NCBI GenBank assembly: GCA_022562855.1
Contig: JADFON010000097.1
Span: forward strand, 1 to 6,877
Reading direction: 5' to 3'
From: Candidatus Zhuqueibacterota bacterium
GTDB taxonomy: Bacteria > SM23-31
DNA: 6,877 nucleotides
Under the pieces are notes generated by a model. That model did not search any database. It saw only the letters and a program-made list of their open reading frames with translations, and was not told the DNA's origin. Positions 2,965 to 6,443 of the stretch are shown one piece after another. Within the stretch, counting starts at the first letter, position 1; every line of letters begins with the position of its first letter. Position numbers and translations under genes: made by a program.

Positions 2965-3257
2965 GGCGAATTTACATAACTGAACATTGGTAAAAACTTA
3001 TATTAAAGTTAAATTCAAATATTTTTTAGATATTAATTTGGAGATAATCACGTCGCTAAGCTCATCGTGGCGTGAGCCATCCCTATCGGGACAATGATAG
3101 AATGAGTATGTGGCACCCCCAAAACTTAGCCTGCCTGCCTGCCTGCCACTATGTGACCCCGTAACTGGGCCTGCACCTCTACGTGCCCCTTTTTTGGGGT
3201 TTGAGGGTGTGATTAACGCCTTAAATTCTAAAATTTACCAAAGTACTGTCAAATTAT
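2965..3257. other. Non-coding intergenic stretch with short inverted repeats
   Basis: I find no convincing gene on either strand. The first 80 bases are AT-rich. From about 3050 the sequence becomes GC-rich and carries several small inverted repeats: GCTCAT/GTGAGC around 3060-3077, TCCC/GGGA around 3080-3091, GTGGCA (3110-3115) with TGCCAC (3144-3149), and CCCC-T6-GGGG (3186-3199). CCCCAAAA near 3117-3124 could also pair with TTTTGGGG at 3192-3199. The stretch could be a decayed dispersed repeat or a structured untranslated region. No known RNA family was recognised. Confidence 0.5.
3129..3147. repeat. GCCT tetranucleotide tract (4.75 units)
   Basis: Four full GCCT units plus GCC run in tandem in the non-coding gap. 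A shorter GCCTGCCT copy lies at 3313-3320, just upstream of the promoter of the next gene. Tandem tetranucleotides can change length by slippage. The tract is outside any reading frame, so it would not switch a protein on or off directly. Confidence 0.85.
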
Positions 3258-3300
3258 AAAGGGGGCGCAGATCAACAAATTTTGTGTCCCCTTTTTATTT
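3258..3300 (+). terminator. Rho-independent terminator
   Basis: A 12-pair stem is formed by AAAGGGGGCGCA (3258-3269) and TGTGTCCCCTTT (3283-3294). It contains two G-T wobbles, encloses a 13-base loop and is followed by TTATTT, giving a run of five T ending the stem. It insulates the ABC module from the selenoprotein gene. It lies about 290 bases after the permease stop, so the transcript would carry a long 3' untranslated region. The A-rich left flank means it could also work, more weakly, on the other strand. Confidence 0.8.
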
Positions 3301-3340
3301 GAGGAATCCGGCGCCTGCCTGTCCCATGTTCGAAAACTCC

Positions 3341-3369
3341 TTGAAATTCATTCTATAATTTAGTACAAT
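3341..3369 (+). promoter_or_regulatory. Sigma-70-type promoter of the AhpD-like gene
   Basis: TTGAAA (3341-3346) and TACAAT (3364-3369) are spaced 17 bases apart. The pair lies right after the terminator and predicts a start near 3376 with a short leader. The ribosome-binding site GGAG (3385-3388) is 7 bases before ATG 3396. A TATAAT at 3354-3359 also exists but has no -35 at a proper distance. This is assigned by pattern only. Confidence 0.55.
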
Positions 3370-3395
3370 TATCATTCACAATCCGGAGATATTCA

Positions 3396-3965
3396 ATGAG
3401 GATACATTCTGTTTCTGTTGAGGAAGCGACAGGTCTGGTAAAAAAAGAATACGACGATGCCGTACGGCGTTCAGGGCGTGTATCGCCAATTGTACGATGT
3501 ATGAGTATAAATCCATCGACCCTCAGCGCAAGTATGAGGTTTTACAAAGCAGTCATGATGGGAAATTCACCGCTAAGCAGATTTCAACGCGAACTATTGG
3601 CAACGGTAGTATCGGTAGAACTCAACTGCCACTATTGAACGCAGGCGCACGCAAACGGTCTCCGTGATGAGATCGATAGTACATTTAAAACACCGGAAGA
3701 AGCTGATGAATTTGTGCATGCAGTGGTAAAGGACTGGCGCTCTGTTTCGCTTGACTCTGTCGACACAGCTCTCTGCGAATTCGCTGCATTGCTTACGCAT
3801 AATAACAGCAAAGTATCTGATTCAGACGTAAATACGCTGCGAAAACATGGTCTGGATGACAGAACAATCCACGACGCAATCCAGGTTATTGCCTATTTCA
3901 ATTATATTACACGCGTAGCTGATGCAACCGGGGTTATTGCAGATTACGACCGTGCATGGGGATGA
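3396..3965 (+). CDS. AhpD-like peroxidase-related selenoprotein with a CxxU motif (189 aa, TGA read as selenocysteine)
   Basis: This is a member of the AhpD/carboxymuconolactone decarboxylase superfamily (peroxidase-related subgroup), small helical cytoplasmic enzymes. Their CxxC cysteines reduce peroxides or relay electrons. The start ATG has GGAG 7 bases upstream. The first 80 codons carry the family pattern: EEATG near the start, SPLSRFQRELLATVVS, then NCHY. An in-frame TGA (3636-3638, residue 81) stands at the second cysteine of CxxC. The same frame then continues with TQAHANGLRDE and a normal C-terminal half (ADEFVHAVVKDWRS, DRTIHDAIQVIAYFNYITRVADATGV) to TGA at 3963. Cys78, Sec81 and His85 reproduce the family CxxCxxxH spacing. 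The full length of about 190 residues matches the family; neither half alone makes a complete domain. There is no frameshift or other decay. A SECIS-like hairpin follows the TGA. The alternative is a pseudogene or read error from TGT/TGC to TGA. I judge selenocysteine much more likely, pending proof of SelA/SelB/SelC/SelD in the genome. Confidence 0.85.
3636..3638 (+). other. In-frame TGA, predicted selenocysteine codon (U81)
   Basis: The codon sits in NCHY-TGA-TQAH, replacing the resolving or attacking cysteine of CxxC. TGA is one substitution from either cysteine codon. TGG is used for Trp in the window, and the same gene ends with a real TGA at 3963. A general reassignment of TGA is therefore unlikely, and recoding must be local. 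Confidence 0.82.
3639..3670 (+). promoter_or_regulatory. Bacterial SECIS-like hairpin downstream of the TGA
   Basis: The RNA just after the TGA can fold with apical stem ACGG (3655-3658)/CCGU (3662-3665). The helix extends imperfectly through C3652-G3666, G3651-U3668 and C3650-G3669, with bulged bases. An alternative pairing is CACG (3648-3651) with CGUG (3663-3666). The apex carries GGUCU at 3657-3661, preceded by 18 bases after the TGA. From memory this is the same motif and spacing as in the Escherichia coli fdhF SECIS loop, which SelB binds. The stem is short and bulged, so the fold itself is less certain than the codon assignment. Confidence 0.55.
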
Positions 3966-4030
3966 TTTCTGCCGGTAATGCCCTATATAACATTCAGACT
4001 TTTCATCTTTAATACTTATTATCAAGAAAA

Positions 4031-4043
4031 AGGAGAAACAGTG
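4031..4043 (+). promoter_or_regulatory. Ribosome-binding site deciding the GTG start of the acylase
   Basis: AGGAG (4031-4035), preceded by a run of A, lies 5 bases before GTG 4041. The in-frame ATG at 3978 has no Shine-Dalgarno and would put 21 residues in front of an otherwise well-formed signal peptide. Confidence 0.85.
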
Positions 4044-6443
4044 AGACATTCAAATTCGAATTACTCTCAATGGGTTTCAATTGTCCTTGCATTACTATTT
4101 ATGTGCCCTGCATTGTCGGCTCAAACACCTCAAGAAACACTTGATATATCAGGTTTAATTGAAAACGTTGAAATAGTTAAGGACATTTGGGGAATTTCTC
4201 ATATCTATGCCAAAAATCAAAAGGACTTATTCTTTGCCCAGGGTTTCAATGTTGCGCGGGACAGGTTATTCCAGCTTGAGATCTGGAGAAGAATGGCTAC
4301 CGGAACGATGTCCGGGATACTTGGCGAAAGGGCGGTTCAAAACGACACGGGCGCGCGCTTGTTTAAATTTCGCGGCGATATGATCCAGGAAATGAACCAC
4401 TATCATCCTGATGGAGAAGAAATTATTACCTCTTTTGTAAGCGGAATTAACGCTTATGTTGACCTTACATTAGAAAATCCGGACCTGCTTCCGGTTGAAT
4501 TCCGGTTGCTTGGAATAAAACCGGGTCATTGGACGCCGGAAGTCGTGGTATCCAGGCACAACGGTTTATACCGGAATGTTCGAAGTGAAATCTCCTTAGC
4601 ACAAAGAGTTCAGGAACTCGGTGGAAATTTGGTGAAACAGTTATCGAATTTTCAACCGGACAACCTTGAATTGAATCTTGACGACGCTATCGACGCTTCG
4701 ATAATCCCGGACAACGTGTTATCGTTATACAGATCGAGAAGCTCGCGCACCAGGTTTATTCCCGATGATATTATCGACCCGGCATACAAAGGCGAAAATA
4801 ACACCGGTGAGCTTTTTGACAGTTTTATGCTTGATCCTGTCAACTATCCTGACCAGGGCAGCAATAACTGGGTCGTAAGCGGAGACAAAACATATTCCCG
4901 GTACCCGATAATGGCGAACGATCCGCATAGATCACAGCAGATTCCGTCATTGCGCTATTTTGTCCATCTGAATGCGCCCGGCTGGAATGTCATCGGCGGT
5001 GGGGAGCCCGTTCTTCCGGGATTGTCTATCGGTCACAATGAACACGGAGCGTGGGGGCTGACTATTTTTTCCGTTGATCAGGAAGACTTGTATATATATG
5101 ACCTGAAGCCCGATAATCCCCACCAATATATGTACCGTGGCAACTGGGAGAACATGACTATAATTCATGAATCCATACCGGTCAAAGGTCAATCCTCTGT
5201 CCGGGTGGAGTTAAAATACACCCGGCACGGACCCGTTGTGTACATAGATAATGAAAATAACAAGGCTTACGCCGTCAGAGCCGCCTGGCTTGAAGTTGGT
5301 TCGGCTCCTTACCTTGCCAGTCTGCGGATGGACCAGGCTTCCACCTGGGAAGAATTCAGAGATGCATGCAGTTATTCAAGAACACCGTCTGAGAACATGG
5401 TTTGGGCTGATAAGTACGGCAATATTGGCTGGCAGGCGGTCGGCATTACCCCTATACGGAATAACTGGTACGGTGTCATGCCGGTTCCCGGCGACGGCAG
5501 GTATGAGTGGGACGGATACCTCCCGGTTTTGGAACTCCCGAACACATTTAACCCTCCCGAAGGATACCTTGTGACAGCGAACGAGTATAATGTCCCACAT
5601 GGCTACCCATACAGGCTTGGCTATTCATGGTCGAACCCGAACAGGGTAAACAGGATAAAGGAAGTGCTGGAGTCGGGAAGAAAATTCACTATTACCGATA
5701 TGATGAGGCTTCAGCATGATGAATTATCCGTCCCGGCGCGGACTTTGGTTCCATTTTTAAGTGGAATTTTACCGGATAATCCAATTACGCAGACCGCGCA
5801 TCAAATGCTGGTATCCTGGGATTATGTTCTCGATAAGAATTCTGTTTCTGCGGCTATCTATACGTACTGGGAGTCCCGCCTGAGATCAAACGTAAACGAG
5901 TTGACAAGGCGTGCATTCGGACCGAACACACCCCGTTCCGACCTGATTCAGTTGATTGCTGCCCCCGACGGAAGATTCGGCTCGAATCCTGCCGAAAGAA
6001 GAGATGAACTGCTAATCCGGAGCCTCGACGAGGCGGTTGATAACATGATCGAAGAACTCGGCTCCGGCATGGAAAACTGGCAGTATGGACAGGAAAAAAT
6101 TCACTACATCAAAATGAGCCATATGCTAAGCGGCGCTGTCAGTCAGGACTTGAGAGAAAGGCTCGACCTCGGTCCGCTTCCCCGCGGTGGCGGATCTACG
6201 GTAAACAGTACGGGAAGAGGAAATCAGCGGTCCGGAGCTTCTTTCAGGATCATTGCCGACACCGGTAACTGGGATAATTCCGTGGGAACCAATAATCCCG
6301 GACAATCGGGAGATCCTGATAATCCTCACTATTCCGACCTATTCAAAATGTGGGCAGAGGGCGATTATTTTCCCCTGTTGTTTACCAGGGCAAAAATCGA
6401 AATGTCCGGAGAAAGCATTACCATTCTCAGAAGCAAAAAATAA
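4041..6443 (+). CDS. Penicillin acylase family protein (peptidase family S45, Ntn hydrolase), secreted
   Basis: This is an amide hydrolase made as one precursor, exported, then self-cleaved into alpha and beta chains. Family members hydrolyse penicillins, cephalosporins, acyl-homoserine lactones or other acyl amides. With the GTG start it has 800 residues, normal for the family. Residues 1-27 form a signal peptide ending in PALSA before Gln. The alpha chain has the family pattern VARDRLFQLEIWRR (about 71-84) and GILGERAVQND. The nucleophile is Ser274 in QGSNNWVVSG, expected to become the beta-chain N-terminus. Beta23 is His296 (ANDPHR), as in acyl-homoserine-lactone and cephalosporin acylases, rather than the Gln of penicillin G acylase. 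The oxyanion Asn is Asn452 in PSENMVWADKYGNIGW. The C-terminal blocks GGGSTVNST (about 716-724) and PGQSGDPDNPHYSD (about 753-766) are intact. It follows the selenoprotein gene by 75 bases and may share its transcript. The substrate cannot be decided from sequence. Confidence 0.95.
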   Translation: MRHSNSNYSQWVSIVLALLFMCPALSAQTPQETLDISGLIENVEIVKDIWGISHIYAKNQKDLFFAQGFNVARDRLFQLEIWRRMATGTMSGILGERAVQNDTGARLFKFRGDMIQEMNHYHPDGEEIITSFVSGINAYVDLTLENPDLLPVEFRLLGIKPGHWTPEVVVSRHNGLYRNVRSEISLAQRVQELGGNLVKQLSNFQPDNLELNLDDAIDASIIPDNVLSLYRSRSSRTRFIPDDIIDPAYKGENNTGELFDSFMLDPVNYPDQGSNNWVVSGDKTYSRYPIMANDPHRSQQIPSLRYFVHLNAPGWNVIGGGEPVLPGLSIGHNEHGAWGLTIFSVDQEDLYIYDLKPDNPHQYMYRGNWENMTIIHESIPVKGQSSVRVELKYTRHGPVVYIDNENNKAYAVRAAWLEVGSAPYLASLRMDQASTWEEFRDACSYSRTPSENMVWADKYGNIGWQAVGITPIRNNWYGVMPVPGDGRYEWDGYLPVLELPNTFNPPEGYLVTANEYNVPHGYPYRLGYSWSNPNRVNRIKEVLESGRKFTITDMMRLQHDELSVPARTLVPFLSGILPDNPITQTAHQMLVSWDYVLDKNSVSAAIYTYWESRLRSNVNELTRRAFGPNTPRSDLIQLIAAPDGRFGSNPAERRDELLIRSLDEAVDNMIEELGSGMENWQYGQEKIHYIKMSHMLSGAVSQDLRERLDLGPLPRGGGSTVNSTGRGNQRSGASFRIIADTGNWDNSVGTNNPGQSGDPDNPHYSDLFKMWAEGDYFPLLFTRAKIEMSGESITILRSKK

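Follow-up and report, generated by a model that had tools for sequence, protein, structure and literature searches.

A probable Cys-x-x-Sec member of the AhpD-like selenoprotein family in Candidatus Zhuqueibacterota

Is a TGA codon that falls within an otherwise intact bacterial gene a stop, a damaged cysteine codon or a codon for selenocysteine (Sec)? The question is raised by the window, i.e. the whole stretch of 6,877 nucleotides analysed here, in which the frame at 3396-3965 of the forward strand contains a single internal TGA (3636-3638) and itself terminates with a TGA (3963-3965). The internal TGA is codon 81 and lies in the motif C78-H-Y-U81-T-Q-A-H85. The first-pass annotation of this DNA had placed one TGA on the second Cys of a CxxC motif in a frame of 189 residues, and had predicted that automatic annotation would break the gene into ORFs of 80 and 83 residues. 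Both statements were correct, since plain ORF calling returns two pieces of 80 aa (3396-3638) and 83 aa (3714-3965). The gene is thus a clean example of automatic annotation splitting or truncating a gene at its catalytic residue. The evidence that we set out below leads us to conclude, with a probability of around 96%, that the gene is a bacterial selenoprotein gene whose TGA at 3636-3638 is read as Sec. The features on which the argument turns are these:

3383-3386, forward strand: GGAG resembling a Shine-Dalgarno element, some 10 nt 5' of the ATG, read from the sequence.
3396-3965, forward strand: predicted coding sequence of an AhpD-like / peroxidase-related selenoprotein (TIGR01926) of 189 aa, from the profile match, the full-length alignment with 35 relatives and the AlphaFold2 model.
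3591-3593, forward strand: codon of Glu66, the putative proton-relay Glu, 12 residues before Cys78; invariant in the alignment (PMC3141380).
3627-3629, forward strand: codon (TGC) of Cys78, the predicted partner of Sec81, equivalent to Cys130 of AhpD and Cys48 of PA0269 by alignment and published spacing (PMC3141380).
3636-3638, forward strand: in-frame TGA, predicted Sec81, second position of C-x-x-C; TGA in 79 of 80 relatives.
3648-3650, forward strand: codon of His85, the putative proton-relay His, equivalent to His137 of AhpD and His55 of PA0269; invariant (PMC3141380).
3656-3675, forward strand: SECIS-type hairpin with a 7-bp stem (3656-3662 with 3669-3675) and the 6-nt loop CGUGAU (3663-3668).

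The two sides of the TGA belong to one protein. The read-through product matches TIGR01926 (NCBIfam 'peroxidase-related enzyme') over its whole length, with an E-value of 8.4e-34 and 116.9 bits for a curated cut-off of 81.8, and the match to PF02627 (Pfam CMD) spans the TGA, in agreement with the earlier claim that family motifs continue in the same frame on both sides. In 189 codons, a random in-frame TGA would fall on either Cys of the CxxC about once in 95 times. Given these odds, and since 79 of 80 independent relatives share the position of the TGA, a chance placement on the CxxC is excluded.

These relatives come from a search of one genome per species in about 85,000 species, which gave 107 relatives, 80 of which were kept. 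The search used six peptide patterns, and the only one spanning the Sec codon was back-translated as Cys, so any bias was against TGA and not towards it. Homologues had been expected to align across the TGA with Cys or Sec at that column, and they do: the aligned codon is TGA in 79 of the 80 best relatives and TGC (Cys) in a single one, the distant Balneolaceae locus L099. Scattered stops in relatives, which the annotation had thought would count against it, did not appear, for there is no other in-frame stop in any of the 80. The Sec-form relatives span at least five phyla (Planctomycetota, Chloroflexota, Gemmatimonadota, Acidobacteriota and Actinomycetota). In the tree, the window gene and the 79 other Sec genes fall on a single branch (97/90), with the Cys forms L099 and L016 just outside, and we found no Cys form within this clade of 80 Sec-form genes. 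The window gene groups with sequences from Chloroflexota and Gemmatimonadota on a fairly long branch (0.59). Its closest relative, L025, has 64% identity, the maximum among the relatives found.

The search also returned some peculiar loci. One genome (G053) carries at least three TGA-containing AhpD-like paralogues (L017, L022 and L023). In L023 a Ser replaces the first Cys (S-x-x-U), and the motif would there offer Sec no Cys to resolve it. Another locus, L102, shows scattered N around the Sec codon near 4226-4255, an odd pattern for a published contig.

These data bear directly on the possibility that the TGA arose from a Cys codon by nonsense mutation, in a pseudogene, or by sequencing error, and that nothing is made downstream. 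A one-base change does suffice to turn TGC or TGT into TGA, the window copy stands on a longish branch, and it carries some uncommon residues where its relatives are conserved (D88 became G and A26 became S, at two well-conserved columns of the 36-row alignment). Yet, a TGA common to 79 of 80 relatives of several phyla contradicts this explanation, which we reject: the residues 3' of the TGA are conserved in the alignment, including the block QVIAYFNY at 163-170, the gene has no other stop or frameshift, and the hairpin described below is conserved at synonymous sites.

The region directly 3' of the TGA carries a signal of its own. The window hairpin reads CGGUCUC-CGUGAU-GAGAUCG, and its loop is separated from the TGA by 24 nt. 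We used the limits of bacterial SECIS elements, in which the loop lies 16-37 nt after the UGA, and the hairpin has the bacterial shape: it stands shortly 3' of the UGA and has a small apical loop with a G within its first two positions. Conserved guanosines in the apical loop have been mentioned for bacterial SECIS elements (PMC1088965). The 80 Sec genes, including that of the window, align gap-free across the 40 nt that follow the TGA, and most of them have the same 7-bp stem, 6-nt loop and interval of 24 nt. The best stem has a mean energy of -9.0 kcal/mol in the Sec genes, against -2.9 in codon shuffles (Mann-Whitney p ~6e-36) and -3.5 kcal/mol at other positions of the same genes, and 95% of the Sec genes reach -5 kcal/mol or lower. 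When the window sequence 3' of the TGA is folded alone it shows no unusual stability (z ~0), so the constraint on the hairpin is visible only by comparison across the 80 sequences.

Pairing was scored on 50 sequences, where 95.7% of the cells are paired against 22-44% in slid controls, a somewhat flattering figure because these sequences were chosen such that most have their hairpin at register +24. Over all 80 sequences, unselected, between 56 and 77 of the 80 are paired, depending on the position. The 50 sequences also show covariation: both sides are changed in 12 cells, and not one of 500 shuffles scores as high. An alignment of eight sequences is too uniform to reveal it. The codon usage is equally telling. 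Within the hairpin, Leu is encoded by CTC in 74 of 76 cases, against 457 of 1199 (38%) elsewhere; Arg by CGT or CGG in 74 of 75, against 395 of 1118 (35%); and Glu by GAG in 75 of 77, against 66%. We read this freezing of synonymous sites as selection on the RNA. The nearly invariant core of the element (CUCCG...GAG) is a possible motif for searches. At the gathering threshold Rfam gave no match within the window, and no tRNA was found within it.

Does the organism have the means to insert Sec? The first-pass annotation had asked for selA, selB, selD and the gene for tRNA-Sec, and all four are present in the window's own genome (G000), an assembly that is 79.6% complete and in 491 contigs. There, selB (377 bits) and selA (530 bits) are adjacent on one contig (C464) and both score over the cut-off, tRNA-Sec is found with 69.3 bits and a UCA anticodon (ARAGORN), and selD carries one TGA itself, in the motif ECAGUASK. 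Among 28 further genomes that carry the Sec form, SelB is over the cut-off in 24. Three more (G064, G065 and G071) have fragments whose coordinates suggest a SelB broken up by the assembly, while G081 has EF-Tu-like matches only. No SelB was found in the genome of L099 (G087), the one Cys-form genome tested.

Some bacterial lineages reassign TGA generally, e.g. to Trp or Gly, and residue 81 might then not be Sec. But the selenoprotein gene uses TGA as its own terminal stop, and there is no in-frame TGA in the other genes of the window, in SelA or in SelB, on which grounds we reject a general reassignment; the alignment of the TGA with a redox Cys across phyla and the complete Sec system of the genome are also against it. 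Taken with the conserved TGA and the SECIS-type hairpin, this machinery strongly supports the original reading of the gene as a Cys-x-x-Sec AhpD-like selenoprotein. The distribution of the gene within the window's own phylum is another matter. It was found in none of five other genomes examined, of which four have SelB over the cut-off, a pattern that may reflect horizontal acquisition or repeated loss.

What might the protein do? The AlphaFold2 model (pLDDT 93.7, pTM 0.90) is all-helical, and the nearest solved structures are those of the peroxidase-related proteins 2pfx, 6k40, 3c1l, 2oyo and 2prr (TM 0.80-0.86). Residues E66, C78, Y80, Sec81 and H85 have exactly the spacing of the published proton relay of AhpD and of P. 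aeruginosa PA0269, which consists of Glu118, Cys130, His132, Cys133 and His137 in M. tuberculosis AhpD and of Glu36, Cys48, Tyr50, Cys51 and His55 in PA0269 (PMC3141380). Counted from the first Cys, Glu is at -12, His or Tyr at +2, Cys or Sec at +3 and His at +7. The 36-row alignment, where U was written as C, shows no variation at any of the five.

One may then propose that SelB and tRNA-Sec decode the UGA at 3636-3638 as Sec, aided by the hairpin directly 3' of it, and that the product is an all-helical AhpD-like protein of 189 residues. Its active site would be formed by the helix with Cys78-x-Tyr80-Sec81-x-x-x-His85 and by Glu66 on a neighbouring helix. The chemistry can be modelled on that of AhpD: the selenolate of Sec81 would reduce a hydroperoxide and become a selenenic acid, and Cys78 would resolve the oxidised Sec81 by forming a selenyl-sulphide, from which a cellular thiol donor would regenerate the enzyme. 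Sec81, rather than Cys78, most likely makes the first attack. The best reading of the enzyme, from the anatomy of its active site, is a thiol/selenol-dependent hydroperoxide reductase. Family and active site together suggest that hydroperoxide reduction is probably its main activity, and its substrates are probably organic hydroperoxides.

The alternative that survives best accepts Sec and places the main activity elsewhere: the protein would mainly be a thiol/selenol oxidoreductase or a nucleophile, for example in a Bmp8-like reductive dehalogenation. The CMD-fold debrominase Bmp8, which uses its CxxC pair for reductive debromination, is among the fold matches (6ohi and 6ohj, TM ~0.75). Moreover, the Cys-form PA0269 has only a weak activity, on H2O2 (PMC3141380), so that the physiological role of the enzyme may lie elsewhere, and we found in the literature no tested function for the AhpD-like selenoprotein family. 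But the peroxidase-related fold matches are far closer in E-value, with an identity of about 30% against 13% for Bmp8, and all the proton-relay residues of AhpD are present. In human Sestrin2, identical Cys-x-Tyr and His residues confer alkylhydroperoxidase activity, and the protein reduces cumene hydroperoxide (PMC4674687). We therefore regard a main role other than peroxidase as rather unlikely. One might also speculate that the Sec-only clade, which spans five phyla, needs Sec to carry out a reaction for which Cys is ill suited, e.g. attack on a halogenated or otherwise unusual electrophile, in place of ordinary peroxide reduction, but this seems improbable to us.

The surroundings of the gene do not indicate its function, since no neighbour recurs in more than five of the loci. 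In the window, an acylase of the penicillin-amidase family (PF01804, 9.4e-199) is encoded on the forward strand at 3978-6443, its ORF beginning 12 nt past the end of the selenoprotein gene. At L042, L080, L081 and L082 the Sec gene also has related acylase ORFs nearby, but these are too few loci for us to claim a functional link. Upstream, the intergenic stretch of 430 nt at 2965-3395 has a run of GCCTGCCTGCCTGCC near 3129-3147 and gives no Rfam match. Further upstream on the forward strand, the segment at 352-519 is a remnant of 55 residues ending in a stop, which resembles the N-terminus of the MacB/FtsX-type permease at 544-2964; with 48% identity to this permease over 52 residues, it is, by sequence comparison, a truncated tandem copy of it.

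Several known systems resemble this protein. The peroxidase-related Cys proteins (2pfx, 2oyo, 2prr, 3c1l and 6k40) share its fold at 20-30% identity, and where aligned they have a C-x-Y-C-x-x-x-H active site, with Cys where the window protein has Sec. Relative to M. tuberculosis AhpD, the window protein has Sec for the second Cys and Tyr for His132. The fold match to AhpD (1gu9) is weak (E 0.06), and with 20.9 bits for a curated cut-off of 191.95 (TIGR00777) the protein is not an AhpD proper. The Sesn-A domain of Sestrin (PA26, PF04636) matches in fold and has in common the Cys-x-Tyr and the following His; its profile match is weak (1.3e-05, under the cut-off), and Sestrin is a two-domain eukaryotic regulator with Leu at the position of Sec (PMC4674687). 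AhpD_rel_CFYUT (NF041238), the 'hypothetical protein 1' of the Sargasso Sea, has a related AhpD fold and a C-x-Y-U-T motif. The window protein matches it in part (profile positions 167-336, 70.5 bits for a cut-off of 175) and is about half its length, so we rejected membership.

The closest known system is the family of AhpD-like selenoproteins itself (AhpD-like 1, COG2128). CxxU proteins of this kind were described in 2005 from the Sargasso Sea, with 27 sequences (PMC1088965), they ranked fourth by number among the families tabulated in the 2008 GOS survey, with 299 sequences (PMC2398784), and a 2026 inventory lists an 'AhpD-like protein, TIGR01926, CxxU' (PMC13188914). The first-pass annotation was right that such proteins were known from metagenomic surveys, and overstated the novelty of the gene in calling it 'unannotated-type'. 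The window gene is a further member of a published family: it shares the CxxU motif, a TIGR01926 score over the cut-off and a bacterial-type SECIS 3' of the TGA with proteins that also come from environmental bacteria. Hence, it adds one sound case to a selenoprotein family that was already described in 2005; it is not a new kind of protein, and it leaves existing knowledge of selenoproteins unchanged. It differs from the other members not in kind but in its origin from a poorly sampled phylum and in an identity of at most 64%; the family gains this phylum, and a sub-clade in which Sec is fixed.
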